Source: Amphibalanus amphitrite
Taxonomy: Eukaryota > Arthropoda > Thecostraca > Balanomorpha > Balanidae
DNA length: 64,000 bases
Direction: 5' to 3'
Assembly: GCF_019059575.1 (NCBI RefSeq)
Contig: NW_024881540.1
Coordinates: 868,001-932,000, forward strand
Both the position numbers and the translations under genes were made by a program. Positions within the stretch are counted from its first letter, which is position 1. Each line of letters opens with the position of its first letter. This document shows, one piece after another, positions 917 through 39,615 of this stretch. The notes under the pieces are model-generated. The model did not search any database. It saw only the letters and a program-made list of their open reading frames with translations, and was not told where the DNA came from.

Positions 917-1135
917 GCACCATGATCCCGCGGTCGGGCGGCGACTTCGCCTACATTCACGAATCGTTCGGGCCGCTGCCGGCGTTTCTGTTCCTGTGGG
1001 TGGCGCTGCTCATCATCATGCCGACCGGTAACGCCATCCAGGCGCTCACCTTCGCGTACTACATGCTGCAGCCCTTCTACAACACCTGTCACCCGCCGGA
1101 CGACGTGGTCCGGCTGGTGGCCGCCATGGTTATTT
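917..1135 (+). CDS. SLC7 gene, exon a (TM3-TM4 region)
   Basis: The acceptor is ctgcccacag before 917 and the donor is T|gtgagt at 1136. The exon starts at codon position 2 and ends in phase 1. It codes [19 protein letters not shown] through LVAAMVI, including the Cys of NTCHPP expected to bond the heavy chain. The in-frame ATG at 859 lies in intron sequence and is not a start. Confidence 0.92.
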
Positions 1136-16334: not shown

Positions 16335-16560
16335 TCAAAGCTGACTGGTCTTTGGAGGCGGGTCATCGCTAACGCGTCGTTCCCCGTTGCTTTGGTGGAG
16401 TTTATCGTTCGCAGGCTGTCTTCCAGTCATCCCCGCAGGTTGGTGACACGTCTCCGCGAGCTCTGTCGGGCAGGTGCCGCCCAGACCGGCGGAGAAGAGC
16501 CGCTGATACTCGTCGAACCGGCCGCCACGGTGGGAGGAGAGCAGCAGGCTCACCGGCACG
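16335..16560 (-). CDS. Gene A terminal exon
   Basis: The acceptor is cactcgttgcag. It enters in phase 2 and codes VPVSLLLSSHRGGRFDEYQR, then GGTCPTELAETCHQPAG, ending TSQL and TGA at 16335-16337. A possible minus-strand poly(A) signal (AATAAA) reads at 15895-15890. Confidence 0.7.
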
Positions 16561-19500
16561 CTGCAACGAGTGTCAGAGTTACACTGACGCTCAGTAGTTG
16601 GTCAGCAATCCCGAGCCCTCAGCAGCTAGCTTCTGTGGTATCAGCTATCACACCTTCATGGAAGGCAAGTGAGTGAAGGGGGGCAGGTAACCTTCTGCTC
16701 CATTGGCAGCAATATGCAACAAATGTTAGTCGGCATTGAATGACCACTTAGGTACCTGATTCAAAATATTAGAAAACAATATCACAAAAAAGTAAACTTA
16801 GGCAAGTGAGTAATCCCTGACTGATCGGCAGGCTGACCGCCGGGGACCTGAGGACTTTGCCCTCACCTGGCGATGGCGAGCAGCGGCCGGTCCGCCCCAG
16901 AGCTGGCCACCAGGTCACACAGGCGGCGCTGGAAGCACGGCTCGTGGCGCCAGCTGCGCGCCGACACCAGACTGAGAAGAGTCCTCACCACCGCTGAAAT
17001 CACATCCAACAGTCAGCTAAAACGGGGTTCTAGTTGCGATAACGGAGCCCGAAGGCATTTCACGAAACGCCTCTGGTGGCGACGGTTTGCACTTCACAGC
17101 AGGTGACCGGAAAATACTGATGCTTTCCGAAAGTATGGGTACAACTGGTCTCCGAAGTCCGAACTACTTTTCAAATAAAGCCATCTGAGTCCGATGGCTT
17201 TATTTCAAAAGGAGTAGACAAGGACAGTGAGCCTAAGCAGCTAAAGGATCCTTTTGACTTCGGCGTCAACTGTCAAGTCAGGTCGCCCTTGTGCGCCACC
17301 CGCCGTCACAAGGCATTTAGCAATAAGCAAATATGGTAAGTAAGTTCCCAAAAACCGACCCAAATCCGGCCCATGAGACTCTGTGATACACATCGCCCTC
17401 AAGGTGCATACGACAGGACTTATCTACGCCCTGTACAAACCTGCAGTGCGAGGCGCGGAAGCTGAGCGGCCGTTGTTGGTCGCCGTATTGGTGTTGGTAA
17501 TGACGTCGTTGTCATTGTTGGTGAGCGTGTTGGTGTTGGTGTTGACCGGGTTGGCGTTGGCAGCCGTGGTGATAACGTCGTTGTCCGTGTTGGTCAGTGT
17601 GGGACTGTTGGTGTTGGCAATGGTGGTGGTGTCGGCATCGTTGATGGTGACGGTGACGCTGCCGGAAGAAGCGCCGGACGACGCTGCTGCCGCCGTGGAC
17701 ACGGAGGTCGAGTAGCCAACCAGCAGAGCCAGCGGCAGGAAACCGAGCAGGTCGCCGAGGTTCGACTTGCAGTCGCACATAACTCGCTTCCCATAGGGCT
17801 TCGGGGTTTTTGGCTTCTTGTTTGATTTGATGTGGCCTTTTGGTTTGCTCTTTCGTCGGAAACTTGACTTCAGTTTTGCTCTTAGATTGTCAAGGCTCAG
17901 ATTCAGATTGATATTAAGCCCGGGCTTCTTTTTGGCCTTCTGTTGTCCCTTTGAAGCGATTTTCGTTTGTGCCTTATTCGTTGTTTGGTTGCGAATTTGA
18001 CTGTATGGCATAGCGGTATCGTTCTTATTGTTTTTCTGTATATCGCCTTTCGCAGTGGAAACGGCTGGAACCTGTCCTTGGACACGAGTAGTTGTTCGAG
18101 CCGTCTGTTTGCGAGGCCACCGTCGTCGAGAGGACCCCCGAAGTCGACTCATTGGCTGAGAGCGGTGCGGTGGTATCAGGGGCCGATGTCCGGTCGAACG
18201 CGGCGCCATGACATTTGCGCGAGCACCTTTCTGTCGGGAGGTCCCCGCTCTACGCCAATGGGGCAGCACAGCACCAAGGCGCGGCTTCTGCCTGAGAGAA
18301 GGCCGCACTCTCAAGGTGTGCACCATTCCCCTGGGATGCAGCACCATCTCTCCGGATGGATAACTCCGGGAACTTGTCGTGTGGTTAGCAGATATCCCCA
18401 TCTGACGGGCTTGGGCCGTTTGCCGGCTGACCAACACCAGCCGCTGCCCCCTCCGTACGGTTTGTGCTAGGCTGGGCTGCCTGCGACCCAGCCAGGCTAA
18501 CAATCGTCCGAGGCTGGGCCAGCGGCGGTGGCTGGCGGCCGGGTGGCGCCGCTGTGCTGGCCGCGGCTCTGCAAGAGGGTGCCGCTGTGCCGGCTGCGGC
18601 TCTGCAGAGGGGTGTCGCTGTGCTGGCCGCGGTTCTAAGATATGAGGCCGCAGCTGTGCCGGTTGCGACTCTGTATGTGGGCTCCGCTGTGCTGGCCGCG
18701 GCTCTGTGTTTGGGCGCCTCTGTACTGGCCGCGGCTCGGCGGGGTGGCGCCGCTTTGCCGGTCGTAGCTTGATCGGCTGGACTGGAGACGTCTCCAGCAG
18801 TCGGTCAGTCGGAGACTGACCTGCTGTTTGCCACAAAACAGGTACCGACGCAGCGCTTTCGGCAGTCGTTCCGTTCATTTCTTCCTTCTGCTTGAACACT
18901 GGCGGGTCTATATGCTCTCCGCCGTCTATCGCTCCCTGTCCAGAGGAGTGATCGACTCCAGGATCCTCTGTCACCAGCACAGGTTTCTGGGTGACGCCGT
19001 CCCGGTGACCTGACCGGCCGACCGGCCGTGCGGTGTGTCCGGTCTCCCGTGCTGGTGCGTTGGTGGTTGTCGTTCCGCTGGCGAGCGAGTTGAACAGCTC
19101 CGGCCAGGTGAGGCGGCCGTTGCGCCTGGAGTCGGCTTCGGGCCGCCGTTTGCGTACGTTGATGGGCACGCCGAGCTGCTCGAGGCGCCGGCCGGTGCCG
19201 AGCCGGTGCGGTCGGCACAGCCCGGCGGAGTGGCACCGGTCGGGCGATACCGTCCCGTCCAGCCACCGCAGCAGCAGCGTCGACATCGGGCGCAGACCTG
19301 CAGCGGGACAACCGCAGTGAGTTACCATGACATGCTGATGCATTTAACATTAGCAACCGTATTTCATTTTCAAAGACTAGGTAAACTGGGAATTGAATGA
19401 ATCTTAAGAAAAAATTACATGTAACTGGGGGATCGCTCATAATCAGAATTTATTAATTAATCCTCGCATGTGTGGGGGAGGGGGTCGGATAGACCCCCCA

Positions 19501-22313
19501 TGGTTTTTTGCGAATAACTCCCGCAAAAAGCTGCCGAGCCCCGCGAAACTTTCAGAACCCTCGAGTTGATTAATTTTACACCTACTCTAAAAATTTCATG
19601 ACTCTGACTTAAGTGACCTTTGACCTGTGACCTATTTCTCGAGGCCATGTTTGGCCAGAATCGCGATTCGGCGTACGTCGGCTCGCATTCGCCGCGCGTT
19701 TGCAAGCTTTTCGTGGTTTCAAACGTTCAAACATGTGATTGGATGCTGCTCCCATGTATTAGGGTGGATGTCAAGGTCACCTGAAGGTCAGGTCAGGTCA
19801 CTGACCTTTGGTGACCTCGGGTCACTTTTCGAGTTTTACATGTTTCTAGGCTAGTTTTTGGAGCTGAATTCGAATTTAGAAACCATTTGAACATTTACGA
19901 AGTAGTTTTGGTGCCTTCTAACATGTTACGAAGCTGTCAGAGGCGGTTGACACCTACTACGTCTACGAATACCCGTCACGACCCCTACTGGTTGACTTGA
20001 CCTGACCTGACCCGACCTGGTCTAAATGCTTAAAGACATCATCTGTGATCAAAACTAACACGATATTCGTGATCAGAACCTCGAATTCCGAAAAAACCAT
20101 AGCAGCCACACTTAACGACTTTCTAACAGGTCCCGATTTTCCCGACTTTTGGGTCATTGACCTGAACTGGAAGGTCAACCAATGTCCTAGGACCTTAAAT
20201 TTGGTATCATCGGCTTCGTCTCGTGACGGGCAACACGCTTGTTTTTTTCGCGAAGCTCTAGCTCGATCAGGGGACAAACGGCAAAGGGGGGTCCAACCGA
20301 CCCCCCCCCCCCGACACGTTAGAAGCTGGCAAACGCCGCACACATGCGAGGGTTAACGAAAGAACGCTTCGCGCTCGTTATTCATACCTAACGAGTTTCA
20401 TATTTAATTCTCCCGATTTTCAGTGCGCCACCTCTTTTCTGGATCTAGCCGACTGCTTAAGGTCTCCCCCCTCCCCCCACCCACCCCCGAGCGCTCGTGA
20501 ACGGGCAGTGGCCGCACTCACCGGGCAGGCTGGCCGGTGATGATCGCGAGCGGGCGGTGGCCGTGGACGTGGAAGTGGCAGTGGTCGTTCCGCTCGTCGC
20601 GGCCACCGTGGCCAGCGAGCCGGCGTAGATGAGCAGAGCCAGCAGCGAGGTGAGCGCCGCCAGCACGCCCGGCGTCACCGACGACTCGGGACAGCGGCAC
20701 ACTGGCTCGTGCCGGTCCCCACCGGCGCGACGCCGCATGCCGGCGTTATCCAGATGCGAGGCCACGAGATTGGCGCCGACTCCGACCACCACATCCAGGG
20801 CGTCCGGGCCGTCAAGCTGACCGAGCCGGTCCCTTAGCCACAGCAGCTGCTCCGCCAGGCCGGCCTGGGGCGGAGCCGGCTCGCCCTGCACGAACTGGGA
20901 GCCGAGCTGAGTCAGTCGACTCACCAGAGGCTCCAGGGGTGGGTCCCCGGGAGGCGCCGGCACAGAGTCGCCACCGCCCACCAGGTCCGTCCAGATGGCG
21001 GCCGAGACGTTCTGAGAGAGCAGACCGGTGACTGCTGGCTCATCAGACAGCACTTGGTCTGCAGACGACAGGGGTTTCATTGTGACGTGTTGGTCGGCCA
21101 CTGGCGGCTGCGACGGGGCCATGGCCGATGCAGGTCTGGTGTCGCTCTTGGGGAGCGATGGCAGGCGTGTCTGACCTCGGCGCCGGCCTGGTACGTTCTC
21201 CGTACGGGGTTGTTGCTCCTGTGTAACTGGCTTGTCGACACGGGAGATGCTGCCGTTGTAGATTTCGGTCCAGATGCTCTGTCGACCAGCTGTGAACCAT
21301 GGTGGCATCTGATGCCCTGTATGTGTGCTGGGTAATCCCGTTCCATCATCTTTGACCTTGGAAGACCAGCCGTCTAATGGCCCCAGCACCGGCTCCGAGA
21401 GCATGACGCGCCGCCCGGCGGACGCGTGCTGCGCCCCGACCGTGTTGGCCTGGTAAAGCGCGCCGTGTCCGCCGACGGCGTCTGTGATCGGAGAGCTGGC
21501 CAGGAAGCCGTTGGCAGGCACCAGGTTCTGCACGTTGTAACGCGTGACGGGCGCCTCGTCCATGTTGTGGCTGGAGAGAGGACCTGCTGTGGCATCGTTG
21601 GGCCCTGAATGGTCCTGGTTGCTAATCGTATTGTTGGTCGCAACGTCGTCTGTTGTCTCAAGCTGAAAGCTATCAGAAAGGTCACTGACTTGTTTGGTAG
21701 AGGTTTCTGAAGGCCTACTTAATGCTAGTGCGGAAGTGACGCCACTAACATCGACCCAAGCTTCGGGCATCATTGCCTGCATCGTCTTAGCGGGGCTTGT
21801 GGTGTTGTAGCTTGTGACTTGACTTGTTCTGTTGTCTGACTTGCGTTCATACAAGACCGGCGCCGTGCCGGCCACTGGGTCTCGTCTCCGCGTACCTGGT
21901 CTGTGCCGATCACCCGCTGCTCGGTCCGCCGGTCTCCTCACTGAAGTCTGCACAGGCAGGCGCGGTACGCCCACCAGGGTAGCTGACACGGGCAGCGGCG
22001 GTCGACTCCGCGGCCAGCGCAGCGGCCGGCCGGCCTCGGCGCGCCCTGCTCCCCCGCCGGTCACCAGCACCAGGCTGAAGTTGGCCGAGGCGGGCCCCAG
22101 CGCGGGCAGCCGGCGCAGCAGCTCGTGCACCGGATCGACCGGCTGCCGGCGGCCGCTGGAGGCCGTGCCAGTCTGCAGGTCCGATCGGGCCGGCACCAGG
22201 GCCGGGGTCGAGATCGGCACAGGCTCCGTATCGGCTGCCACCAGAACACCTGCTGTGGACACGAAGAGCAGCAGCGACAACATCAGCAGCCGATGAGGAA
22301 CATGCCCCAGCAT
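16335..22313 (-). CDS. Gene A: signal peptide, two CxC-hydrophobic segments, Asn/Thr repeat module, C-terminal Cys domain; function unknown
   Basis: Four exons on the minus strand (22313-20522, 19297-17441, 16993-16867, 16560-16335) join in frame to 1333 codons plus a stop. The start at 22313 is chosen for its context (CAGCCATGC) and the signal peptide LLMLSLLLFVSTAGVLVAA that follows. Residues about 30-538 are low-complexity Ser/Thr/Pro-rich. CRCPESS (539-545) precedes hydrophobic segment 1 (about 549-570, LAALTSLLALLIYAGSLA). After a second long basic region with a PAQR-type repeat, CDCKSN precedes hydrophobic segment 2 (about 1111-1132, LLGFLPLALLVGYS). An Asn/Thr/Asp module follows (about 1144-1204). 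The C-terminus has PCFQRRLCDL and GGTCPTEL. It is probably a secreted or membrane protein of a lineage-specific family. Gene B is a paralogue. I do not recognise a named family. Confidence 0.75.
16867..16993 (-). CDS. Gene A exon 3 (Cys-pair segment)
   Basis: The acceptor is tgtgatttcag and the donor is CCAG|gtgagg. Phase 1 to 2, 127 nt. It codes VVRTLLSLVSARSWRHEP, then CFQRRLCDLVASSGADRP. Both splice sites are strong, and the phase fits exons 2 and 4. Confidence 0.75.
17173..17205. repeat. 13-bp stem hairpin with AATAAA on both strands
   Basis: The arms 17173-17185 and 17193-17205 (AAATAAAGCCATC / GATGGCTTTATTT) are exact reverse complements around a 7-base loop. It sits in gene A intron 2. 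It may be incidental. Confidence 0.6.
17441..19297 (-). CDS. Gene A exon 2 (basic region, PAQR repeats, second CxC-hydrophobic segment, N/T/D module)
   Basis: The acceptor is gttgtcccgctgcag and the donor is GCAG|gtttgt, phase 1 to 1. It starts LRPMSTLLLRWLDGTVSP. Near its start, DSRRNGRLTWPE resembles an EF-hand loop with Asp1, Asn5, Gly6, Leu8 and Glu12, but position 3 is Arg. About seven imperfect 11-12-residue repeats of type EPRPAQRRP lie at 18500-18780. Then come Lys-rich sequence, CDC, the hydrophobic segment, and a repeat in which TLTNTDNDVIT recurs as TLTNNDNDVIT after 24 residues. Confidence 0.75.
19461..20352. mobile_element. TTAA-flanked element, family A, copy 2 (892 bp)
   Basis: TTAA at 19457-19460 and 20353-20356. 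The termini are TCCTCGCATGTGTG and CACATGCGAGGG. It has exactly the length of copy 1 in the opposite orientation. G/C hairpins lie at both ends, and palindromes AGGTCACTGACCT (19795-19807) and GGGTCATTGACCT (20151-20163) are present. It lies in gene A intron 1, between exons 1 and 2. Confidence 0.85.
20522..22313 (-). CDS. Gene A exon 1 (signal peptide to first CxC-hydrophobic segment)
   Basis: From ATG 22313 to the donor CCCG|gtgagt, ending in phase 1. The frame is open for a further 67 codons upstream without another good start. The end of the exon carries TSGTTTATSTSTATAR, a Thr-rich tract directly after the hydrophobic segment, like the Asn/Thr tract after segment 2. Confidence 0.75.
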
Positions 22314-23620
22314 GGCTGCCCTAGCGCGAAGGGCGCCAATTTCCTCGTCTGGACAGTCAGCCTTCCGAGGACCAGGCGGTATACCGAATCGGATACCCAC
22401 TTGAGATGTTCGATGCGGCACCTCCGTAACGTGCCTCAATTGAAGCAGCAATTTCTTTCTGGGAAATTTTTCTATATTTCTCCCAAGTAGAGCACACGTC
22501 AGTCGTCCGTGCAACCTTCAATCCGTCCTTGATTCACAAAAGGCAACTACACTAGGTATCACTTGGAACTGCGGCAGACGTCGAGACAACCCTTATTTTG
22601 CAGCAGTCTCAACAGGCTTCCTCTGTCCATGTAACGTCGACGACTACCTTCTAACGACTGGCTTGTCATCCGTCGAGCCCATCGGGTTTCCGACAAGTGT
22701 CTGGAGCCAGACACACGCACGCACACGCCGAGGGGCAGCCGGCAGCAGCTCCCGCGTTTTTACCGCGCCACCTGCCCCGGGAGGCGTCGGCGGGTGTCGG
22801 CAGCGGTCGACAGATGTCAGCGGTACGGCCGGCGAGCGAGTGCGAGCGCGCCTGCGGTCAGTTCATTAGTGGCCGGACGTCCAGCGGATAATGTGAGAGT
22901 GCTGGGACTGACTCGGGACTGACTCATGACTGGTGACTGGGAACGGGTTGGGAAATCAATCATTCAGCGTGCTGCATACAGAACGGTTAGCAACTCTACT
23001 CAGCAATATCATTTATAGAAAAGTCATGCACCTCTGACTGTGGTCGGTATAGGGAGCTGAACCGGCAGGTCAGGTCAGCTGTCCGACGTGACACGCGGGA
23101 CGAGATCGGCCGGCCCCTGGTGGTGGACGAGATCGGGCGGCTTGAGCTCCCTGGTGGCGCAGCGTGCGGCCACAGGAGAAGCGGCCGGCCAGACCATCGC
23201 CTGACGCGGACGTGAACGCTATCAGCCGCGATATTTTATCTGTGTCGGCCCGGCCGCGGCCCGGCAGGTGGTCTGTGCAGGCCCGGAGCCGGCGATACGC
23301 CTCCCAAGCGTGGCCACCGGCCGGTTCCAGGTGACAACAGTCACTCAGGGGTATATTAGTCGGATGGGCGATGAAAAGGCCACTTTGACCCTCAAGCCAT
23401 CGCCAAAAGCACCGAACGGGTTGTATACGATCAGTTACTTTACAAACCAATAACCATTATCTATTATTATCTAGTCAGCATGGTCTTAGGTCGAATCCCT
23501 CCACTGACACTGCTCCTTACTGTAACAGATAGAGTACTTATTGGAGATTTGAAGCTATGGACCAGAGCGAGGTCAGTCTTCTACACCTGTTAGATCTGTG
23601 TAAGTGTTTTGGCGTTATTA
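22314..23620. other. Upstream region of gene A
   Basis: GC-rich sequence directly upstream of gene A's start (22520-22900), expected to hold its promoter and 5' UTR. I could not pick out a convincing TATA box or initiator. It also contains the candidate exon at 23072-23352. Confidence 0.4.
23072..23352 (-). CDS. Candidate exon (possible downstream exon of gene B)
   Basis: On the minus strand the frame reads DCCHLEPAGGHAWEAYRRLR, then ACTDHLPGRGRADTDKISRL, and closes with a stop at 23072. GGHAWEAYRRL resembles GGRFDEYQRL of gene A's terminal exon. A start after the AG at 23353-23354 would enter in phase 2, the phase in which gene B exon 3 ends. The acceptor is weak and the distance from gene B is about 10 kb, so this is only a candidate. 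Confidence 0.25.
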
Positions 23621-24800
23621 CTGCGCGCAAAGCAGCATATACCAACGCGTGCTACCAAACGTTTTAGTAAAAGATTCAAAATCGTTAGATCTGCGCTGAC
23701 GTCACACATTCAGAAGGGGAATTCAAATGCACTAGCCCCTCTGAATCAAAAGTGCTGCCACTTGGAAATGAGATATTTTCGATTTGAGGCTTTTCTCGAT
23801 GCTGTGAGTGCTCAAACCGGTAAGTGCAAGCCAGGGACTCCATTTTGGCTATTTCAACTCAAAACTAATGTTAACCCTCGCCCGCACATGGGGGGGGGGG
23901 GTGCCACCCCCAGGCAGTCTTTCTGCTCTGCACTCAACATTTTTAGAGCTAGAGGGCTGATTTTTCGTATAGCTGCTCCTCTATCCTTTCTTGATGTCCA
24001 CTGAAAATGTCAAGTTTCTGTGACTTTTGGATTCGGAGATATGACCTTGTTTTTCAGGTCATGTCATGACCCAAATGGCCAATTCTCAACATCTTGCGTT
24101 TGCCATGGGCCTTGTGAGCTTTTGACACCTTGATTTCGGCCTTTTTTTGCCAGTCTTACCTCCCACCTATCATGGAACATGTTCGACGATGTACAGGGGT
24201 CAAGGTCAGGGTCAAGGTCAACCCAGGTCATCTAAGATAATTGCGTTTTAGGCAAGCTAAAGTTACTTTTTGTGAAGTTTTTTGACTACATTTCTAGTAA
24301 AAGCTTCTCAGATCATGATTTCATGTAATATGGACACAAAAACAATCGGTGCACACATCAGTATACACACAGACACACACAGACATACAAACACATATAA
24401 TTGACCTTGACCTAACTTGACCTGAAATGACCTCAGCAGCAAAAATCTGGTCGGGTAGTGTGACAAAGAGGTTCTAGCTGGCTTGGCACCAGAAAACAGC
24501 ATCGTCATCGGTATTTGATAAGCAGCGCACTTGATATCCAACGGTGACCCAAAACAGCAACATTTTTTAGTTTGACCTGACCTGGAAGGTCAATGACTGA
24601 CCTGAGAAGGTAAAACTGGGTATCATTGGATTCGTCTCTTCCCAAAGAACCTTTTTGGTCTTTACCGCTAAGCTCTATCTCCAACAGGAACGAAATGGCG
24701 CGGGGGGTGGCAACCACCCCCCATGTGCGTTCTAGGATGGGAAAATGGCATGTGGGGGCGAGGGTTAAGGTGGGATGGTTACTTTAAGTGCATTGTAATG
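23620..24800. repeat. Repeat Q, copy 2, split by a family B element
   Basis: The sequence matches the reverse complement of 12470-12800. It is interrupted exactly at its TTAA (23871-23874 and 24765-24768) by the element at 23875-24764. Removing the insert and one TTAA restores the arrangement seen at 12515. Confidence 0.75.
23875..24764. mobile_element. TTAA-flanked element, family B, copy 1 (890 bp)
   Basis: TTAA on both sides, with termini CCCTCGCCCGCACATG and CATGTGGGGGCGAGGG. A GGGG...CCCC hairpin lies near each end. Other copies are at 49160-50069 and 57643-58526. A conserved open stretch of about 77 codons on its minus strand (24541-24308) recurs in all copies, but it overlaps simple TG/TC repeats and is not convincing as a gene. 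Confidence 0.85.
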
Positions 24801-25528
24801 TCTGATAGGTAAATGATTAATTGATTAGTCTCTGGTGACCCTTTGAAGGTCACCAGAGGTCAGCAAAGTGAAAATATTATTTTTTCCCGGATTACGATGA
24901 TTATCAGCTTCAGACGCTCTAGCGCGAGAACCAGAAGAGCTAGAGCGGCTTGGAAAAAGAAACGATAGCCCATTTACAGCACTATCCGGAGTAAACCGTC
25001 AGATTTGTCCTCAGGTCAACGGATTGGCTTCCAGGGGTAAAAAATCGCCAAAATAACCAATATTGACGAAACTAGTCTTTTTCGGGCATACCTAACTTCT
25101 GACATCGACGTGTTTTTTTTTTTCCAAACCCGACATCTGTTCTCCCGTAAATTTCCGGGAAGCACGAAAGATGTCTCCAAAAAGTGTCGAATTTCGATCT
25201 TGATCAATGTGTGTTCGTAAGCTTGTTCTGACATTGCTTAATCTGCCAAGACAAAAAAAAAAAAAAATCAGAGAAAAAGAGTGACTGTAGGTACCTTTTC
25301 TGAAAGGTTCTTATCAACTTGTCGGAAATTCCCGGGAGAACAGATATGGGGTTTGGAAAAAAGAATACGTCGACATATTAAAGCTCGGTCAATAATTTAA
25401 TCAATATAACATTTTTCTCAGACGCGTCGTTTCGAAGACATCAATTTCAATAATGCATAAAATAGCCTCGAAAAGTCAAATTGAAAATTTGATCTCAGGT
25501 CAAGGTCACGACCTGACCCAAAAAAGTC

Positions 25529-26401
25529 ATTACGAGCGAGCGAGCGCAGCGAGCGAAGCGAAGTCTTTTCAATATAACGGAAAAATCTCAGTATGAGCGG
25601 CCCGGCCCGGCCCGGCCTGTAACGCTTTTGAGAGGCTTATATCTCAGCAACCGCTGGACCGATTGGCCTGCGGTCTTTTTTGCTGGGTAGCCCCATCCCT
25701 TCTACCCCGTAATTGACTACTTTTGATACATCTAGCTCAGTGACCGTCGTGGCACGTGCCACGTGAAAAGTCAAGGGTGTTCAAGCAGTTTTGCAAAAGT
25801 AGTGATTTTGAGAGGCCCATATCTCAGCAGGGGCTTGAGCGATTGTCTTGCGGTAATTTTTATAGGGTAGCTGCATCCCTTCTACCAAAGGTCAGATACT
25901 CTTGATCGATGTGAGTGACCCCTACTGCACGTGCAAAATACAAAAAGAAGAGGTACCAAATTTGTTCCCATTTCAGTAACTCGGTAATTACTGGGGCGAT
26001 TTCGCTGAAACTTGGCATACAGATAGGCACCCACCAGGCAATGCATTCCCATGTGTTGCGGTTAGGGCATGCTACTGCACGTGCGCACGTGCAGGGGGCT
26101 TTCCAGATCTCGAGAATGGCTGGGCCGATTGCGCTCAAATTTGGTACACGGTTGGGGACCGGTTAGTAGGGTGCCGTGCAAAAGTCATTTTGAACCCCGT
26201 TTTGCACGTGCGCACGTGCAGAATGCCGCTTCCAGATCTCAGGAACGGCTGGGCCGATTGCGTTAAAATTTGGCACACCGCTAGCGGCCGGTTAGAAGGG
26301 TGCTTTGCACAAGCACGTTGGAAGTACCCTCTCGCCCTTCCGCACGTGCAGGGCTCACTATCTCGCTCGCTCGTTCTTCGCCCAAAAGGCGTTTTACTGG
26401 T
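25529..26401. mobile_element. CACGTG-rich element, family E, copy 1
   Basis: Starts ATTACGAGCGAGCGAGCG and ends CGCTCGCTCGTT...GGCGTTTTACTGG, so the outer parts form an inverted repeat. Its interior repeats GCACGTGCGCACGTGCAG and a block with GGGCCGATTGCG about every 110 bases. No transposase. Near-full copies are at 26864-27741 and 40527-41405, and reversed partial copies at 39616-40430. Confidence 0.75.
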
Positions 26402-26489
26402 AAGTAATTTCTATTGATTTTTTCTCGTTTACCCTAACAATCCATTTTTGTTCCTCAGATTACCTGTATGCTTCCATTCCACGCTCATT

Positions 26490-26863
26490 GCCTAAATATT
26501 TTATGCGTCATGCGGTAACAAACAACGTCCTCACGCCCTTGCGGCGGCCTAACGAGCGGCCACCACAACAGAGCGCGGCAGTGAACGACACTCAGCCGAC
26601 CGTCTCGAGGGACGCAACTCGAGCCGGGTCCTGCCGAATCGGACTCACCTCTGACCTTGAGCGCCCTATCGGACACTGCAGTACCTACACTGCGCACCAT
26701 CCTCTCTCAGGTGTTGTTGAGATTGGAGCGTGCCCTTGCCTCAGACTGCTCTATTGACTCACATCGTGAGCATTGTTTTCCTCTCTTTGTTTTTACTTAG
26801 CGGATGATAAAGACGGGCTACGTCATCAATGCACCATACACAGGGCCTTCTCGGTACGTTTTT
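26490..26863. other. GC-richer single-copy-looking stretch between two family E copies
   Basis: On the plus strand a frame from 26573 reads LSALSDTAVPTLRTILSQVL, then LRLERALASDCSID, which looks protein-like, and stops within about 75 codons. A donor-like CAG|gtgttg occurs inside. There are no matching exons nearby and no family I recognise, so it is not called as a gene. Confidence 0.25.
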
Positions 26864-27741
26864 ATTACGAGCGAGCGAGCGCAGCGAGCGAAGCGAAGTC
26901 TTTTCAATATATGTAAGGGAAAAATCTCAGTATGAGCGGCCCGGCCCGGCCCGGCCTGTAACGCTTTTGAGAGGCTATCACAGCAACCGCTGGACCGATT
27001 GACCTGCGGTCTTTTTTGCTGGGCAGCCCCATCCCTTCATCCCCGTAATTGACTACCTACTTTTGATACATCTCAGTGACCGTCTTGGCACGTGCCACGT
27101 GAAAAGTCAAGGGTATTCAAGCTGTTTTACAAAAGAAGTGATTTTGAGAGGCTCATATCTCAGCAGCCGCTTGGGTGATTGTCTTGCGGTAATTTTTGTA
27201 GGGTAGCTGCATCCTTTCTACCAATGGTCGGACACTATTGATCTATGTGAGTGACCCCCAGGCCTCACTGCACGTGCAAAATGCAAAAAGAAGAGGTGCC
27301 AAATTTGTTCCCATCTCAGTAACTCGGTAATTACTGGGGTGATTTCGCTGAAACTTGGCATACAGGTAGGCACCCACCAGGCAATGCATTTCCATGTGTT
27401 GCCGTTAGGGTGCTACTGCACGTGCGCACGTGCAGGGGGCGCTTACAGATCTCGAGAACGGCTGGGCCGATTGCGCTCAAATTTGGTACACGGTTGGGGA
27501 CCGGTTAGTAGGGTGCTGTGCAAAAGTCAGTTTGGACCCCGTTTGCACGTGCGCACATACAGAATGCCGCTTCCAGATCTCAGGAACGGCTGGGCCGATT
27601 GCGTTAAAATTTGGCACACCGCTAGCGACCGGTTAGAAGGGTGCTTTGCACAAGCCCGTTGGAAGTACTCTCTCGCCCTTCCGCACGTGCAGGGCTCACT
27701 ATCTCGCTCGCTCGTTCTTCGCCCAAAAGGCGTTTTACTGG
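26864..27741. mobile_element. CACGTG-rich element, family E, copy 2
   Basis: Same start (ATTACGAGCGAGCGAGCG), same end (GGCGTTTTACTGG) and same order of internal blocks as copy 1, with scattered substitutions. The two copies are direct repeats about 460 bases apart. Confidence 0.75.
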
Positions 27742-28395
27742 TGCTGTACATCAATTGATTAGTCTTGCCCAGCTCTGAACGTAAGAAGTAAGTACATAGG
27801 ACACCCCAGATTCTTGCAGATAGGTGTACTGATAACGCATGTTATCGATCAATGTGCGGACGACACTGTATACATAGCCCGCGCCGGGCCGGTGCTCGGC
27901 GCCAACCGTGCGGGGCTGGGCGGGGGTGTCTGAACACCCCCTGTCTAATAACTCGGCTCCCGGGCCACGTGGCGATGCACAGTAAGCGGCATTCAAAAGA
28001 GCGCAAAGATCATGACGAAAGTACCTCGGTCATTTTTAAGGTCTGGTCAAAGGTCAGGTCACCAGAGGTCACCAGAGATAAGATTTCGCATGTTTCATTT
28101 TTTTTTTTTTTTTTGACAAACCGGCGCATAGCTCGGGAACCAATAGGTAGAAAAATAGAATAGTTATAAGTACCTACTAGAGCGACGAGCGTCGTGGACG
28201 CATTCGATAACTCTTTTAACTCTCTTACTGAAATGTGTCATATTTGACTTAACCCGCGCCCCACTGCACAGTGGGGATTTTTCCGATCTAGCGCCTATTA
28301 ATTCAAAAAATATTTTTTGGATTTTTGTTTATTTTTTGTGTCAGCAGGGCTAAGAAATGTCTGAATTTTTCATATATGGCATTGTTTTATCTGTA

Positions 28396-29554
28396 CAGGG
28401 TGGGGCAGCATAATCGGGAATAAATATCAAACGGGATTATTTGGTCATGAATTTAAAAATATAGCTCCAAGCACTATTTTAACAACATCCCATCAATCGG
28501 TCACCTTTTACCTATCCCTCATCCTTTTTGACCGCCCTTCGCGTCGATGACCTTCTCAAGGCGGGTCCAAAAGCACGCGCATGCACGTGCAACCTCCTGC
28601 TTGTCCATGATCGCCCATCAGCTTCGTACCTTGCACTGAAGACCGTTTTTACTGATGATAAGTTGTTCATTAAACTTCTACCAAAAAACGCTCCATATAA
28701 AGAATTTGGTCGGATTTAAATCGGCGGAGTTGAAGGACCAGAAGTTTTTGGTTCATCTCAGGTGGAAGTGCCCTACACAATAACATGTCGTCCTCACTGC
28801 AGTACCAGCACGGACAGAGTCCTCGTAAGACGTGATCTGGACCGTCAGTGATCCTCTCTTCCGACGACTCCACGTGAGTCTGCCAGAGTGTGGATGTATT
28901 TACCAGAGGTGCTCGTTTTATCCGGGCTCGATGAAGTAGAGTGCACCACGTGCACCTCCCTTGAAGACCACCCATAGGTCCATTACCTCAACAGGATGTT
29001 TACTGTGCATGACCGCTGCAATATTCTCGATACAATCCCCTATATGGCATGCCATTCTTTTTTATCGTATTCCAGTCGGTGATAAGATTTTTGGTCGCTG
29101 AAGTTTTGAACATTGTTTCTTTTTAATATGCTCAAGAGCTTCTTCCTTATATTCAAGTGAGTCATCTTGTATGTCCTCTGCTAAGAGTTATTTTACGACG
29201 ATTACGTTAACTTTTTGTCCTAAGTATCCCCACACAATCCTTATCGTCCGTGATAACACGTTGACCTGTCCAGCAACCTTTACGTGGAATGGCATTGTTC
29301 AAAATTCAAAATTCAAAATGTTCTTGTTTTACTCGTTTAACATTAGTGTCTATGGGCGCGCGCAAAGCACTTGGAGCACCGTCGAACTATTTTGCTGCTC
29401 TTTTCCAGGAAGTTGCATGTTCATGGATGTAGTCATGTCAGATGATGCACAACTTTTGGGCGTTTCATTGCCATGATATAACTTATCAAAATAATGCCAT
29501 GCCTACTCATGACCAGAGCCCAGAAAGCATTCCCGATTATGCTGCCCCACCCTG
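28396..29554. mobile_element. Tc1/mariner-like element (1159 bp)
   Basis: Ends CAGGGTGGGGCAGCATAATC and GATTATGCTGCCCCACCCTG are perfect inverted repeats with TA outside each (28394-28395, 29555-29556). The length and TA duplication fit a mariner-type element. A broken transposase lies inside on the minus strand. Confidence 0.85.
28525..29500 (-). pseudogene. Degenerate mariner-type DDE transposase
   Basis: On the minus strand, 28746-28681 reads SADLNPTKFFIWSVFW, the counterpart of the family's SPDLNPxDFxIW motif that carries the third catalytic Asp. About 120 bases further, in another frame, LEKVIDAKGGQKG resembles the usual C-terminal end. Stops and frame changes elsewhere rule out activity. 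Confidence 0.7.
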
Positions 29555-30141
29555 TATGTCCACAGCAAAACTAGGAAAAATGCGCCCAAAGTTCACACTC
29601 ATGCGTGATTACTCAATGGGCTCAGCAAGGCCCGAAAGTATAGCTCAATTTCATTGTCCTGTCCTGTTGGTTTTAATCTTGCGAGGTCTTAAAGTTGCAT
29701 ATCGTCTGAAAGGCACCTTTATTAGGAATGGAATGGCAAACAAAAAGTATGCCACAACCTTACTAAGGTCACAAAAATGCCCTTTACAAAAAAACTCTTA
29801 CAGACACCATATTGAAGGAATGGTATTCTAAATAAATGTAGGAAATCAACAATGTTCTCCACACTTTTCCACTCCGAAATATATCCTATGGAATTCGCCA
29901 CTTTCTTCTGCACAAGACAACGCCTAGTTTGGCTGCCGAAACTTGCCTGAACACGGAATATTCACATTAGAGTATCTTAACACCCCACTCGAGGAGCGCT
30001 AGGGCAAACAGCACGATATAGGTATGTTCCGGACATAGGCGAATAATTTTACTTCGTGATTTATATGATGCATATTTTCTGAGACACATTCATTAGGAAT
30101 AGGATGACAAGCGTAAATTATACATACCGTAACCTTATTAA

Positions 30142-31005
30142 CCATCGCACTTGCGGGGAGGGGGAGGGGGAAGGGGTCGGATAAAACCCCATGGTTTTCC
30201 GCAAATTACTCGCTCAAAAAGCGGCCGATCGCGCCGAAACTTTCGGTACCCTCGAGATCATCAATTTTACATCTAACCTAAAAATTTCATGACTCTGACC
30301 CAACTGACCTTTGACCTGTGGCATATTTCTCGAGACCATGTTTGGCCGGAATCACGATTCGGCGTATGCCAGCTCACATTATCCGCGGTTTCCAGTCTTT
30401 TTGTGGTTTTAAACGTTCAAATATGTGAAATGATGTTGGTGCCATGCATAATGGTGGGTGTCAAGGTCACGTGAAGGTCAAGTCAAGGTCATTGACCTTT
30501 TGATGACCTTGGTTCACTTTTTCGAGTTTTACTTGTTTCTAGGGTAGTTTTTGGTGCTGATTTCGATTTTAGCAGCCATTTGAATATTTACGAAGTAGTT
30601 CTAGTGCCTTCGTTCCATGTTACGAAGCTATCAGTAGTAGGTGACACTTCTATGGATGGCCGGCAGGACGCCTACTAATTGATCTAACCTGACCTGACCC
30701 GACCTGGCCTAAATGCATAAAGACATCGTCTGTGATCAAAACTAACATGAAATGCGTGATCAGCACCCCAAAATACCTCGTAACACCCTAACTTTGCGAA
30801 GTTTCAAGAGGTCTCGATTTCCCAACTTTAGTTGGGTCATTAAACTGACTTGGAAAGTCAGCTTATGACCTTGGACTTTGAAATTGGATATATTCGGCCT
30901 AATTTCGTCATAGGCAGCACGCTTGACTTTTCCGCGAAGCTCTAGCTTGATCAGGGGCCAAACGGCTGAGCGGGGGGTCCAATTGAACCCCCTATACTAT
31001 GTTGA
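30142..31005. mobile_element. TTAA element, family A, copy 3 (right end lost)
   Basis: TTAA at 30138-30141, then CCATCGCACTTGCGG. The body aligns with copies 1, 2 and 4, including the palindrome AGGTCATTGACCT (30486-30498). The right terminus and its TTAA are missing after the G/C hairpin near 30970-31003. It is more diverged than the other copies. Confidence 0.75.
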
Positions 31006-33148
31006 TTATGCACATTTACAGGTAAAATTCTCACCAGGACACACCAGCCAACATCTGTGCACAATCTGGCTACAATTCTACCTATGGTTTGCCCTCTACG
31101 AATAAATACGTGCTAGATTGGAAAAATCCCCACTGTGCACTGGGGGGGAGGGGGCTACTCATAACCCCCCTCTCGTTTTTCTGCAATAACTTCTAAACCA
31201 CTAGACATGTCGACGCGAAAATTTCAGTACCTTCGGCTGCATCAATTTGACACCTTGTGTCAAACTACGAACTTCGTAGCTACCATAGATCGGCCGGAAA
31301 TGACGTCAGAGTGACGTCATGTTCGACCGATCTCGACGCAAAACATTGAACTACGGCAATTGCTCTCAAGAGCTCAGTTTTTGAACTAGATCCAATTTCG
31401 AACATATTTGGTGGAGTGCTGTGCTGAGCATTGTTAGAAGGAAAATAGTTATCATTGAGATATAATAGCCTTTGCTCATATTAAGTTCCGAATGGAAAAT
31501 GAAATGCAAAATTCTTTGAAAAAATACCCCCTTTCTAAAAAAATAAATATGTATTTTTTCAAAGCATTTTGCATTTCATTTACCATTCGGAACTTAATAT
31601 GAGCAAAGGCTATCATATCTCAATGATAACTAGATCCAATTTCCTTGCATGAAAGGACTTCAAATACGCAGTGCTATCAAACTGCTATCTCAGATGTTCA
31701 AAATTTTGAACATTTTGAAACTTATTAACATTAAATTTCAAAGTTTATATTTTCATCTTTTTTCCATTTTTTTTTTTACTTTTCGAAAAAACCGGAATAA
31801 TATGATAGAACACCTGCCCATGATATACTCTAACAAGTTCTAGGATATCTTCAGAAATAGCCAAGTTATACCTACGCATTATAGCATAAATTTCACTATT
31901 ATAAAAATCAATTCTTCAGTACGTATTTGACGTCGCACACCAACATAAATAGCATCATCGTGTTCTGAGCTCAAACTGCATCTAATAGGCACATTTTTTG
32001 TTGAAACATTTCAACTTTGAAATTTGACCTTTTTGACCTGAAAGTGACTTGACCTCCGGTAAATTTAGCTGAAAATGACCTCAAATGATACAGACGACAT
32101 TGGTTTCGAAAACCACGAGTAAAATGGACCATAAAACATGCGTCACGTGACTGATACATGATATACAATTCTCGTGACCTATAGGCTGACCTGACCCTGA
32201 CCTAGAAATCAAAGTACAAGTCTTGTACCCTCAGGGTATCTAAAGCATCTATTCATAAGTGCGTAAACAAAAATGAGCCTTATCTCACTTGTACCTAAGC
32301 CGACGACCAGAGCCCAAAATGTGAATAAGCCAACCATCGATAATTTTTACTTTGACCTAACCTGTGACGTCATGGGTGACCTCGAGGTCAATAAAATTAG
32401 GTTACGATCGACAGTATTTCCGGGGCTATCAGACGCCGTTTGAATTTTGACAATCGGCCCAGTAGTTTCGGAGTTAGGAGGGGGGGGGGGGGGCTATGAA
32501 GCCCAACTGAGGGGGGATGAAGCCTCCCCCTCAGTAGGGCGTGTTATACGCAGACCCCAGAGGGGCGCGGGTTAAGGTCAATAGTCTAGCCTCCGGAGGA
32601 CAAAAACTAAAAATAGCAGTTTTTACGAAAAGTGTTTTTCAACAATAACTTTAAATCAAGAAAGGTACGATACTTATTTTGCCAGCGTCGTTTTCCTCTC
32701 GTCGAGACGCATCGTGTGAGCTTTTATTAGACCTTTCAAGGTCAACTTGAAAAATGGATCTCAGGTCAAGGTCATGACCTGACGGGAAAGGTCATGTTGC
32801 ATGTCAGTCGATCCGTATCGTCGACCTGAGCGCATCTAAGTGTTTCCATCGTTCCAGCATGTCTCTATCAAAAGTTATTAGAAGAAAAAAAAACTGCTGG
32901 GGACCTTTCGTGGCCTGAGATGACCTCAGGGACATAAGGGGGAGTCACGGATACAATTTTCCGATTCAATGTCTCAAGTTTACCTGTAACCTTGTTGACC
33001 GATAAGTGAGCTTACGAGTATGCAGTTGGTGTCAGACGAGTTCAGCGGAACACTCTGAAATTATACAAACACAATCGCTATGACCGGAGGAGCGGAGTGA
33101 ATGACCGGATAAAGCGCATGACCCGATGAATCGGATGAGGGTTCTCAC

Positions 33149-34463
33149 CTGACAGGAAGCTGCCGATGCGTAGGCCTGTGGTCTCGCTGCGGCCGGCTTG
33201 GGTGACCGAGGTCGGGACGGCGCCACCCGTGGTCAGCTTCTCGATTGGGTGGTCGTCTCATCGTGCCGCTCACGGCTCTTCCTGGCACTGCTGGAAGGGA
33301 GCGTGGCACTGCCCGGCCAGAGATCAGCTCGCCCGTAGTCGCCACCCTCTCCTGCAGTGCTTCCTGAATCTCTGGGAGAGGGCTGGAACCTGTCCTGGAA
33401 GGCAGCCGCACTTTTCCAGATGTCCGTTTGTGTGCGACGCGAGGCGGCACTAGGAGAGACCAGAGTGTCGGCGGCGTGCTGAAGTCCGCGGCCGCGCCCA
33501 GGTGGCGGGCCGTGTTGGTGATGATGTCGTTGTCCTGGTTGGACGCCGTGTTGGTCAGCGTGTTGAGCGGGTTGGCCTGAGCAGAGACCGTGATGACGTC
33601 GTTATCGGTGTTGGTGAGCGATGGCGTGTTGGTGTTGGTGCTGGTGACGGTGTTTCCGCCGCTGACGGTGACGGAGGTGGTGCTGCCGCCGCCGGAGGTG
33701 GTGCCGCCCGCCGCTGCGGAGGCCGAGACAGTGGTGGTGTAGCCGAGCACCACTGCGATCGGCAGGAAGCCGAGCAGCTCCTTGAGCCCGGTGCGCTCCG
33801 GGCAGTCGCACTCGTGGTGGTTGTAACCCTTCGGCCGGCGGCTGCCGCGGATGCTGCGTCCCAGTTTGGCCATGATCGTTTTAAAGCGTGCCTTCCACGA
33901 CTTGTGGCCGGGTGAGTGTCTGGCTAGCGGTGTTTGACCGTCCACTCTGCGGTGTCGTTGAACCGGCCGGCCGCGAGACTCAAACGCTCCACGGCGTCTT
34001 GGAGCCCTGCGTGCCACCTGCCATCCACTGGGGTTGTTTTTAGCCTCAGCTGCCTCACGCCGACGCGATCTCTTCGATAACACACTGACACTTCCTTGAT
34101 GTGTGGTTCTGTGCCTCGACATCAAGGGCAACGTGAGCTGACCAGTCGAGTTCAGTGAAGTGCGCTCCTTAGACTCGGGGGACTGGAGCGGGGAGCTGAG
34201 ACAGGTTTGTTTGCCGGCGCATGGTCTCCTCTGAGGTCTGAGGTGAGACGAGGTGCTCCTCCGAGCTCCAGACGTTGACACCGGACTGACGGATGGTGCC
34301 AGGTGCCGGCGTACACGGTGGCTCTCAGCAGGATGCATCTTCCAGTTAACTGGCGGAGCGATCAAGCTTTCAAAAACTTCAGTTAAATTGCTGGATATCT
34401 TGAGAATATTCGTTCTTCTCGTCTCGTCGTTCGGCGTCTGATCCAGTAAGAAACTGGCCAATT
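33149..34463 (-). CDS. Gene B exon 3 (basic region, second CxC-hydrophobic segment, N/T/D module)
   Basis: The acceptor is atttctttcag. It enters in phase 1, giving E-LASFLLDQTPND. It carries CDCPERTGLKELLGFLPIAV, then NTNTPSLTNTDNDVIT and, 24 residues on, the related SNQDNDIIT. The part after about 33490 has low similarity to gene A and may include an unrecognised intron; only the portion 33490-34463 is firmly supported. Confidence 0.65.
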
Positions 34464-36809
34464 CTGAAAGAAATTTAATCACGTTATCAGTACAGTGTCT
34501 TGTGAGAAATGCCTAAAATGATTAAAAATCAGATAAGACCAATCGGAACAGTATCTCCTAGTCCTACCTAGTCCTTTTACCATTATTGATGCTTCTTATG
34601 GACATGCATCAAAGGCTCGATAAAGCCCCGAACAGCTTATCTATCACCCCAGACCAAAGTGAATACCGTTCACCTTCCCTCCGGCCCAGTTCAGCGCCGT
34701 CCCTCCAGCGTACCGTGGTAATGGGCGCCGTCCGCCCGGGCGCGTCCCGTGGCCGTCGCGTTGGCCACCGCCTGGTAGTTGTTGGATGTGCTTGTCAGCG
34801 CGTACACCAGCAGAGCGGCCAGCGAGAGGACGCCCAGCGCGGTGCCTGGCCGACTGAAATCCTCGCACAAACACTGCTCCTTCATGGCGGCCTTGGAAGC
34901 CGACGGGTAGCCGTCAGTGGTGTCCCCCGGCAGGTTATACCCGGTACCGACCTGGTGACATTTCACACACATGTTACAATGACAGGGTGTGCTCGGTACC
35001 GGCCTTAAAACGGCCGGTGCTAAGTCGGCGTGTCATAACCGCAGGTTGTTTCTTCATTAGACAAACACTATTTGTTAGAATTGTGTTTTTCTATTGAAAA
35101 ACAACCGGAGCAGTCCTTCATCGGGCTATCTGCGCCATTACATCAACTGCTCACCCTGATAATAGCATCACGCTTTGTCACAATTTCCCGGTGGCAGTGT
35201 GATCACCGCAGTCTACATTTTAAAAGTGAGTTTAGAAGTCATACCTGGTTTAATATGGTTTGTTTATGCATTTGATCCAGCTGTGATTCGCAGCCTAATA
35301 ATGTCTCGCAATGGATTTTGTGTGAATAGTAATAATGGAAATATATGCATTCAATTTATATGAAGACACTGCTTAGTTCACAACTTCAGTTCCAGGGCGT
35401 CCCGCCACAGTGAACGTCTGAGTCCTGGCGGAATGCCAAGCCCGTTTGTGAGTCATCGGGCCCCCATGTCACATTGCCACCGCATCTACCCACATAATGT
35501 TCTGCTTACTGCATGCAACATTCATTGTGATCGTATTTGTTATCGTTCTACGCTCGAGGGTGTACTGTCGTGTTTCTGATAGTGTCATATCTTTGGGCGG
35601 CCTCACCTTGTGGAGGACGCGCTGCTTTCCCCTGTGGAGGCCTGTCGAGCTGAGCTCGGAGCGCGCGCGGCGGGCCGCCGACTGGTGGCCGTCCGCAGCC
35701 GCCGTGAGCTTACCGAGCAGACTCGCCACGTCCAGGGCCGGGTGCAGCCGCGCCGGCGGCGCCGCTGCCCCGTCGGCCCGGGCGCCGTACCACGGCCGGC
35801 CGCCGAGCGGCAGACGGCGCGGGGCGCGCGCCCGGCTGGCCATGACAGCCGTCAGCGGCCGCGCTGACGGGGCCGCCGCCGGCCGGCTGAGCGCGCCCGT
35901 CCGCCGCCGGACCGCCTGCGCCGCGCGGGTGGCGCTCACCAGACGAGCGCCGATGCTGAGCGGGCGCCAGCCGACGCGCGGCAGCCAGCCCCAGCCGGGT
36001 GGTCTGGGCCCGCGCCGGCCCCGATCGGCTCCCGACACCCCGCGCCGAGGCACCACCTTCCTCGTCGGCCAGTGGAGCCTCCAGACTTTCCTTGGGCGTC
36101 TTCTGGACATCTGCCGAATTTTCGATCCTCGTGTGTACTGCGGGTACGCTTCCGGTTGACTGCCCTCTCGGTCCCAGGTCACGGCTCGTGGGTCCATGGT
36201 GCCGTCAGTCAGTGGCCACAGCCGACCTGATCGTGACACGGGTTCTTTGAGCTTCTCTCTCGAGCTGGCGGTGAGGTTCCAGTGCGTCTGTGTGACTGAG
36301 GACAGACCTGGTGTCTCTGTGAGCTGTCCAGGTCGCTGAGTGGGGTCGACCAATGGCATGGACGGTTCAGGTGCCGCTAGTGTACCACCATGAGAAGGCC
36401 AGCCATAGGCATGGTGCACTAGATCATGCACACTCACTGGGACATCTGCGCTCATCCAGCGGCCGGCTCCTGCTGGTTCCGGCGGCTGTTCTGGCCGACA
36501 GATGAGGCAGCTGCGCCGTCGTCGGCTGTCGGGCTGCCTCGGCCCCCTGCCCTCCGCAGCTCGGTCTTGGCCGAGCGACCCCAGGCGCTGAGGGGGCGCA
36601 GGAGTCCCTCCCGGTGTGACCAGTCGTTTGGTTCTGTCCGCCGAACCGACTGCTTCCCACAGCCTCGTGGGCTGCGCTGGCGGACGGCGCCGAGACCAGC
36701 CGGAGGCCGCAGACATCGGCTTCCGATGCCCGTGCAGCTCGGATTTCGTGGCGCCAGCGAGGACCAACACTGCCGTCAGAGCGGACAGCACAGACGTGCG
36801 GAACACCAT
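33149..36809 (-). CDS. Gene B: paralogue of gene A (signal peptide, two CxC-hydrophobic segments, Asn/Thr module); 3' end unresolved
   Basis: Three exons (36809-35607, 34951-34714, 34463-33149) join in consistent phase (0, 1, then an end in phase 2). The start at 36809 has an ideal CCACCATGG context and a signal peptide MVFRTSVLSALTAVLVLAGA. Residues 25-400 are low-complexity and basic. CLCED precedes hydrophobic segment 1 (about 436-454, TALGVLSLAALLVYALT). CDCPERTG precedes segment 2 (about 708-726, LLGFLPIAVVLGYTTT). The Asn/Thr/Asp module is at about 751-799. The order matches gene A, but segment 1 sits on its own small exon. The frame meets a stop inside the donor-like CAG|gtgaga at 33148. 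Either the gene splices on or the protein ends there. Function unknown. Confidence 0.7.
34714..34951 (-). CDS. Gene B exon 2 (first CxC-hydrophobic segment)
   Basis: The acceptor is tgtcaccag and the donor is CCACG|gtacgc. Phase 0 to 1, 238 nt. It codes AAMKEQCLCEDFSRPGTALG, then VLSLAALLVYALTSTSNNYQ. The CxC, hydrophobic and Thr/Asn-rich order is that of gene A's first module. Confidence 0.75.
35043..35105. repeat. Structured dispersed element S, partial copy
   Basis: GGTTGTTTCTTCATTAGACA and the following hairpins match copies at 40422-40525 and 43652-43756. It lies in the gene B intron between exons 1 and 2. Confidence 0.7.
35607..36809 (-). CDS. Gene B exon 1
   Basis: 401 codons from the ATG to the donor CACAAG|gtgagg, phase 0. 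A signal peptide is followed by Arg/Pro/Ala-rich sequence of very high GC. The opposite strand is also open for 232 codons here, an effect of base composition. Confidence 0.7.
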
Positions 36810-39330: not shown

Positions 39331-39615
39331 CTGCGAACAAGAAGAGCGGCCATTATAATGTTTTAACGTTTAAGTATAGCATTTGTCTGCATTCTAAATT
39401 TACAATATTGACAATTAACTGTTATTTTCGGGTGTGAGGCTGTTGTTTCCTATTGTTTATAAACCATCGGTGATGAAAGCGTATGTAGTTATGTGCGGTG
39501 TCATGTCACTACCGATGCCGGTGGTCTAGGCTCCACTAGACTAATACAGAAAGGGGTAAGTGTCAATACGGCGATACATTTCATAGCCACAGACTGTAAG
39601 AGCGTCCACAATCTA

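Follow-up and report, generated by a model that had tools for sequence, protein, structure and literature searches.

Two tandem genes and their parts

The window analysed here is a stretch of 64,000 nucleotides of the Amphibalanus amphitrite genome (C43:868001-932000 of an assembly of 807.55 Mb in 2644 contigs, to which the C-numbers refer). Its minus strand carries two genes in tandem, A (22313-17424, 1221 residues, two supported exons) and B (36809-33145, 919 residues, three supported exons). Both encode the order of features that a first, sequence-only reading had described: a signal peptide, a long disordered region, a CxC with a hydrophobic segment, a basic region, a CDC with an LLGFLP(L/I)A segment, and an Asn/Thr tail. 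The parts are listed below. Splice-site scores, here and later, were obtained with a matrix taken from general knowledge, and all pN/pS values are uncorrected for transition bias.

Gene A
20522..22313, minus strand: exon 1, with ATG at 22313, signal peptide, disordered domain and module 1; donor CCCG/GTGAGT, phase 1, score 5.7; pN/pS 0.41, no stops
22233..22313, minus strand: signal peptide, residues 1-27, hydrophobic core of KD 2.45, called by eye and hydropathy
20523..20741, minus strand: module 1, with CRC (from 20699), then hydrophobic segment and Ser/Thr tract
17424..19297, minus strand: exon 2, with basic region, module 2 and stop; weak acceptor (1.4); pN/pS 0.36
17451..17816, minus strand: module 2, with CDC (from 17777), LLGFLPLALLVGY and Asn/Thr/Asp tail
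17469..17666, minus strand: Asn/Thr tail, 24-residue periodicity, no N-glycosylation sequons

Gene B
35607..36809, minus strand: exon 1, with ATG at 36809, signal peptide and disordered domain; donor phase 0, score 6.4; pN/pS 0.37
34714..34951, minus strand: exon 2, with module 1; acceptor 34951 (or 34891), both weak (-0.4 or -1.0); donor phase 1, weak (1.7)
34727..34924, minus strand: module 1, with CLC (from 34873), hydrophobic segment and Ser/Thr/Asn tract
33145..34463, minus strand: exon 3, with basic region, module 2, about 120 more residues and stop; acceptor phase 1 (4.1); the copies show only 2 differences
33475..33846, minus strand: module 2, with CDC (from 33810), LLGFLPIAVVLGY and Asn/Thr/Asp tail
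33511..33684, minus strand: Asn/Thr tail, 24-residue periodicity, no N-glycosylation sequons

When the two proteins were compared by blastp, the strongest match covered module 2 (E=2e-22, 64/153 identities), followed by module 1 (E=1e-4). The remaining two segments (E=0.039 and 0.60) were a match of module 1 with module 2 and a His/Pro-rich stretch. The disordered parts yielded nothing comparable, in agreement with the earlier remark that these parts are barely alike whereas the modules are.

Five genes in the genome

The distribution of the module in the animal's own genome was analyzed with module 2 of gene A as query. Ten convincing places were found, corresponding to five genes in two copies each (E from 7e-99 to 3e-9, the next match being at 0.23). 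A query with gene D returned the same ten places (weakest 1e-3, next best 0.16). The ten also came up with gene E as query, D at no better than 0.022 and 0.07 and the next match at 0.20. Since the search scores best candidates only, five genes is a lower bound. The second copies of A and B are on C1298; genes C and D form a second tandem pair, on C459, which recurs on C31; gene E is on C329 and recurs on C16. C (1085 residues) and D (669 residues) have the complete two-module plan. In E (178 residues) the plan is reduced to a signal peptide, a single hydrophobic segment lacking CxC, and an Asn/Thr tail that closes with DNDVITNP-stop. The locus had been described as two tandem paralogues: A and B are indeed tandem relatives, but five genes were found in their family, not two. 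A-E form a gene family of secretory-pathway proteins that is real, has clear bounds and carries a repeated module.

Module-2 identity ranges from 32% (D-E) to 55% (A-C). A five-tip tree of module 2 has modest support (0.76 and 0.82) and does not resolve the correspondence of the tandem copies. A whole-genome duplication is reported for barnacles in passages of PMC11331182.

Gene models and a shared intron

Of the seven exons initially thought to join in consistent phases, five are supported, two in A and three in B. A possible extra exon of gene A (16601-16338) is not among them: no acceptor of good score precedes it in a compatible phase, and its haplotype copies, with 1 difference in 264 bases, are too alike to judge constraint by. 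The stop lies 4 to 22 residues past the Asn/Thr tail in A, C and D and directly at the tail in E; gene B is the exception and continues for about 120 residues beyond its tail. Because the tail comes soon before the stop in A, C, D and E, gene A most likely ends at 17424 and not at 16335.

After module 1, the top-scoring in-frame donor is of phase 1 in all four long genes (A 20522, B 34714, C C459:185615, D C459:182071). The acceptors of the module-2 exons were picked afterwards to match phase 1. They score well in B (34463, 4.1) and C (185426, 4.4) and weakly in A (19297, 1.4) and D (181832, -0.1); in gene D, the higher-scoring acceptors either have a different phase or lie past a stop in the reading frame. 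The donor evidence supports a phase-1 intron between the modules that the four long genes share. Least certain in the gene models are the acceptors chosen for A and D.

Coding constraint between copies

The paired contigs are 93-99.8% identical in their main blocks, with insertions between these. They look like haplotype copies and could be recent duplicates. Codons were compared between the copies for 4038 of the 4068 codons of the five genes, aligned pieces of less than 80% identity being dropped. We counted 185 synonymous and 171 nonsynonymous differences, that is a pN/pS of 0.35 (binomial 2.8e-21, differences being treated as independent). Stop codons were looked for in the second copies of the exons and none was found. 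As a control, reading the differences in the two shifted frames raises pN/pS to 1.17 and 1.57 and brings in 87 and 96 stops, versus 0 in frame. All ten indels are multiples of three. The initial 597 bases of A exon 2, which contain a gap of about 22 codons, entered the main pN/pS count but lie outside the alignment behind the frame control and the indel count.

Module 2 alone gives a pN/pS of 0.11 (10 synonymous and 3 nonsynonymous differences in 558 codons), all of these differences coming from C and D because module 2 of A and B is identical between copies. Gene E has 1 synonymous and 2 nonsynonymous differences (ratio 0.76); E and exons 2 and 3 of B offer too few differences to judge. The sequence-only reading had placed strong constraint on the modules only. 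Module 2 is more constrained than the whole (0.11 versus 0.35), but the mostly disordered first exons are constrained too, with values of 0.41 in A, 0.37 in B, 0.32 in C and 0.47 in D. As seen between the paired copies, these counts show the A-E exons to be real coding sequence under purifying selection.

High GC, the surrounding repeats and transposon fragments, and several antisense open frames would suit a reading with no gene family at all, in which the open frames arose by chance in GC-rich repeats or belong to pseudogenes or transposon-derived sequence. This is contradicted by the constraint between copies, the lack of in-frame stops, the in-frame indels, the shared intron phase and the finding of ten places in 807 Mb, and we give it almost no credence.

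An apparently repeated module

To compare modules 1 and 2 we considered their cores, i.e. the CxC with the hydrophobic segment. For six core pairs, 0, 0, 0, 1, 3 and 10 of 2000 residue shuffles score as high; with whole modules, the pairs joining a module 1 to a module 2 are weaker (0, 5, 10 and 43 of 2000). This test leans toward similarity, because the limits of the cores were set by eye and a shuffled core loses its hydrophobic block. The CxC is present at both modules in A, B, C and D alike. A tyrosine lies within the hydrophobic segment in 7 of the 8 module copies of A-D (D module 1 being the exception) and is absent from E. A profile built from the four modules of A and B, scanned against the six frames of the window, recovered only its own four members (next E=1.2). 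Modules 1 and 2 thus appear, from their cores, to be copies of one module. The two hydrophobic segments described earlier are both there in A and B, but the core shuffles and the CxC shared by both positions in A-D make them look like one module repeated.

Between the modules lie the motifs RKRR in A and RVRR, RSRR and RHRR in B. If furin-like proteases recognized them, the precursors would be cut into separate single-module peptides, which would account for the tandem modules as well as for the one-module gene E. Counted over A and B, such sites are at chance in gene A (1 versus 1.37 expected) and weakly above it in gene B (6 versus 2.15 expected; 49 of 2000 shuffles have as many), and we regard this processing as improbable.

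Module 1 was tried as a family query and rejected, as it did not separate the family. Among the 24 matches of gene A module 1 in its own genome, C comes first after A at E=0.020, places outside the family begin at 0.034, B is at 5.1, and D is not among the matches listed. Of the 24 matches, 15 were extracted, and eleven of the non-family places were inspected: 7 gave no local alignment, 2 were short chance matches and 1 (on C119) had no CxC. The remaining one, C77:150223 (genome-wide E=0.27), is an ambiguous case: it does have a CRC, and after it come a hydrophobic stretch, though an uneven one, and a run of Thr/Ser.

The Asn/Thr tail

The five tails are composed of 55-68% Asn, Thr, Ser and Asp. 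In residue-similarity autocorrelation over 27 lags, a spacing of 24 residues scores highest in A, B and C (z 3.2-3.4; 3, 3 and 6 of 2000 shuffles as good, uncorrected for the number of lags) and third highest in D (behind 8 and 18) and E (behind 26 and 19). The autocorrelation summed over the family also peaks at 24, the tails being homologous and so not independent. Asn and Thr occupy alternate positions: the same letter recurs two residues apart in 46 cases, against 8 mixed ones, a count made without shuffle control. N-glycosylation sequons number 3 in the five tails versus 19.8 expected, and 0 of 5000 shuffles have as few. They are distributed as follows: none in A, B and C, 1 in D and 2 in E, the last being at chance. 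The lack of sequons may be a by-product of the Asn/Thr alternation. AlphaFold2, run with window sequences only, gave two models with pLDDT 49 and 41. Both have strands in the tail, and the first also places a helix at the hydrophobic region; at this confidence the predicted strands hint at beta structure and are no evidence of a fold.

In curli-type functional amyloids, imperfect repeats of about 22-24 residues follow one another in tandem, with Asn, Gln and Ser at regular intervals. They resemble the tails in the 24-residue periodicity (A-C), the richness in Asn and the alternating side chains. The tails of A-E differ in having just two repeat units and another motif (LTNTDNDVIT..ANPxNT), and in being joined to a hydrophobic segment.

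Known families and cement proteins

No match above the curated cut-off was found in Pfam-A, exon 1 of C being scanned for 775 of the 898 codons of its open frame, nor in NCBIfam. The best sub-threshold Pfam scores are DUF7432 on module 1 of gene A (14.4 bits, cut-off 27) and Plasmodium_HRP on a His/Pro-rich stretch of C (23.2 bits, E=7e-5, cut-off 45.8). The best PDB match, ribosome-releasing factor 2 (E=0.1 over 32 residues), was taken as chance. Prokaryote genomes and viral contigs returned 123 and 121 pattern matches, none confirmed as relatives, and no paper describing such a family was among those listed by a literature search. The proposal of an unrecognised membrane or extracellular family therefore agrees with the Pfam, NCBIfam and PDB results; A-E may already sit in public annotation as uncharacterised proteins. 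We have here a protein family that is missing from the libraries searched, whose modular anatomy is clear and whose conserved core is defined. Its five genes, the shared intron and the haplotype comparison supply boundaries for expression, antibody and structure work.

Barnacle cement proteins were considered in particular. In the major bands of the glycine/serine-rich class (GSrCP), as we read PMC5099703, Gly, Ser, Thr and Ala each exceed 10%; further marks of this class are alternating silk-homologous blocks and its occurrence in cement. CP20k has more than 14% Cys, repeated Cys domains and CxC motifs (PMC3661472). None of A-E reaches 10% in all four residues (A has G 7.6, S 9.3, T 8.8, A 9.8), and their Cys content is 0.5-1.3%, versus more than 14%. 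The family resembles the cement proteins (CP19k/Aa43, glycine-serine-rich, and CP20k, cysteine-rich) in the signal peptide, the low complexity and the presence of several paralogues; CP20k has the CxC motif in common with it as well (PMC3661472). It differs in its hydrophobic segments and Asn/Thr tail and in composition.

A proposed membrane topology and a secreted alternative

Leaving signal peptides aside, two segments exceed KD 1.2 in each of A, B and C; D has another two on top of its modules (1.40 and 1.21), and E has a single one (2.18). Module-1 segments range from 1.75 to 2.20 (A-C 1.75-2.12, D 2.20) and module-2 segments from 1.35 to 1.69 (A-C 1.48-1.69, D 1.35). The usual threshold for membrane spanning is 1.6, and the module-2 segments of A, C and D fall below it. 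The loop between the modules is basic, with a net charge per 100 residues of +13.0 in A, +11.8 in B, +11.3 in C and +11.0 in D. The corresponding values for the N-domain are -0.2, +10.2, -0.1 and +8.2, that of B being nearly as basic as its loop. In the same order, the flanks of module 2 carry +5, +2, +4 and +3 before the segment and -2, 0, -1 and +1 after it, and those of module 1 +2, -1, -1 and +3 before and +2, +1, +4 and +3 after. By the positive-inside rule a basic flank stays inside. The basic loop, together with the basic N-flank and near-neutral C-flank of module 2 in all four genes, would thus place the loop inside and the tail outside. Module-1 flanks favour an N-outside orientation only in B and C, those of A (+2/+2) and D (+3/+3) being equal.

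Our best reading, to which we give a probability of about 45%, is that A-D are two-pass membrane proteins with the N-terminus and the Asn/Thr tail outside and the basic loop inside. The signal peptide would direct the disordered domain (367-779 residues) out of the cell. Module 1 would stop transfer and span the membrane, so that the loop (151-545 residues, strongly basic) remains inside, and module 2 would cross back, leaving the tail outside. The tail could fold into a short beta-rich unit, with 24-residue coils whose alternate faces bear Asn and Thr, and bind other copies or extracellular matrix. The CxC pairs might make disulfides between neighbouring molecules, if outside, or carry lipids, if inside. 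The outcome would be a membrane-anchored low-complexity linker from cell surface to matrix. In hydropathy and loop charge A-D resemble two-pass (hairpin) membrane proteins whose cytosolic loop is basic; A-D differ by the signal peptide, by a long disordered domain that would lie outside and by homologous segments that would sit in opposite orientations, and have no family match.

This opposite orientation of homologous modules speaks against the two-pass reading. Gene E raises a serious objection: once its signal peptide is cleaved, a single segment would leave the tail of E on the inside, opposite to A-D. A close rival, quite possible in our view, is that A-E are fully secreted, self-associating matrix or adhesive proteins. 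Their hydrophobic segments, CxC pairs and Asn/Thr beta tails would be sticky nodes joined by disordered Pro/Arg-rich spacers, in the manner of silk or cement, and the single module of E would pose no parity problem. Signal peptides, low-complexity composition, the lack of a recognised domain, the marginal hydrophobicity of module 2 and the 24-residue tail repeat all fit such proteins, and barnacle cement is reported in PMC5099703 to contain basic, low-complexity proteins. The module-1 segments are, however, fully transmembrane-like (KD 1.75-2.20), the basic loop and neutral tail suit a membrane topology, and the composition falls outside both cement classes tested. The equal module-1 flanks of A and D make the two-pass reading slightly weaker and the secreted one slightly stronger.

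A bolder proposal, which we hold to be unlikely, makes the tail a new kind of miniature module, either a beta-solenoid or a functional amyloid. It would have two coils of 24 residues, with ladders of Asn and of Thr on opposite faces and sequons avoided, and would be displayed outside the cell on a CxC-hydrophobic anchor that is duplicated in long disordered proteins, these proteins polymerising into a membrane-tethered fibrous coat peculiar to the animal's lineage. Should the tail prove to be a self-assembling beta unit, surface coats or underwater materials would gain a new building block.

Both AlphaFold2 models also show an amphipathic basic helix ahead of module 2, which a test by hydrophobic moment did not support. 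The moment is not above shuffles in A (1994 of 5000 as high) or C (3083), weakly above them in B (547) and clearly above them only in D (27).

Variation within the gene family

The basic loop, the region between the two modules (units of a CxC and a hydrophobic segment), was compared among genes A-D. In A, B and C it carries a second cysteine pair after module 1, at C619/C625, C562/C568 and C840/C845 respectively; this pair is absent from D. Two further features lie in or beside these genes:

18545-18737 (window): Pro/Arg/His-rich tandem repeat in the loop of gene A
C459:178003-179166 (contig of the second tandem pair): 388-codon open frame adjoining gene D

By eye, the frame next to gene D looks like a gag-protease piece of a retroelement. 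A His/Pro-rich stretch in exon 1 of gene C (C459:188126-185615) matches a Plasmodium histidine-rich protein at 23.2 bits, below the cut-off of 45.8, a match probably due to composition. The second copy of gene B, on contig C1298, contains about 8 kb of extra sequence inside intron 1 (C1298:25233-33229); at the matching point the window is continuous and lacks it. The search of the animal's own genome also returned a weak match to module 1 (C77:150223-150417, E=0.27), which lies within a 248-codon open frame and has a CRC, then a hydrophobic stretch that is uneven, then a run of Thr and Ser. This segment may or may not be related.

Other open frames and repeats in the window

The remaining features of the window are distributed as follows:

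817-1233 (+): AA_permease_2 open frame (Pfam, E=6e-8, above cut-off)
3094-3200 (-): match to Rfam MIR6450 (76.4 bits, cut-off 70)
9094-9453 (+): AA_permease_2 open frame (Pfam, E=9e-5, below cut-off)
38947-39369 (-): 140-codon open frame, several hydrophobic stretches by eye
54087-55144: minisatellite, 21-base unit repeated about 50 times
59696-60118 (+): CCHC zinc knuckle, domain match

MIR6450 is a plant microRNA family. The matching segment, however, forms an inverted repeat (about 67 bases) that is close to perfect and leaves hardly any loop; a MITE-like palindrome appears more likely than a MIR6450 microRNA. The zinc knuckle is probably a remnant of a retrotransposon gag. Several frames are open on both strands of the minisatellite, and its long open frames are probably not genes. 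The 140-codon frame, upstream of gene B, gave no match in a Pfam search and is possibly an exon of a membrane protein. The two AA_permease_2 frames probably represent exons from a gene for an amino-acid transporter. These putative exons are located beyond gene A, on the opposite strand.
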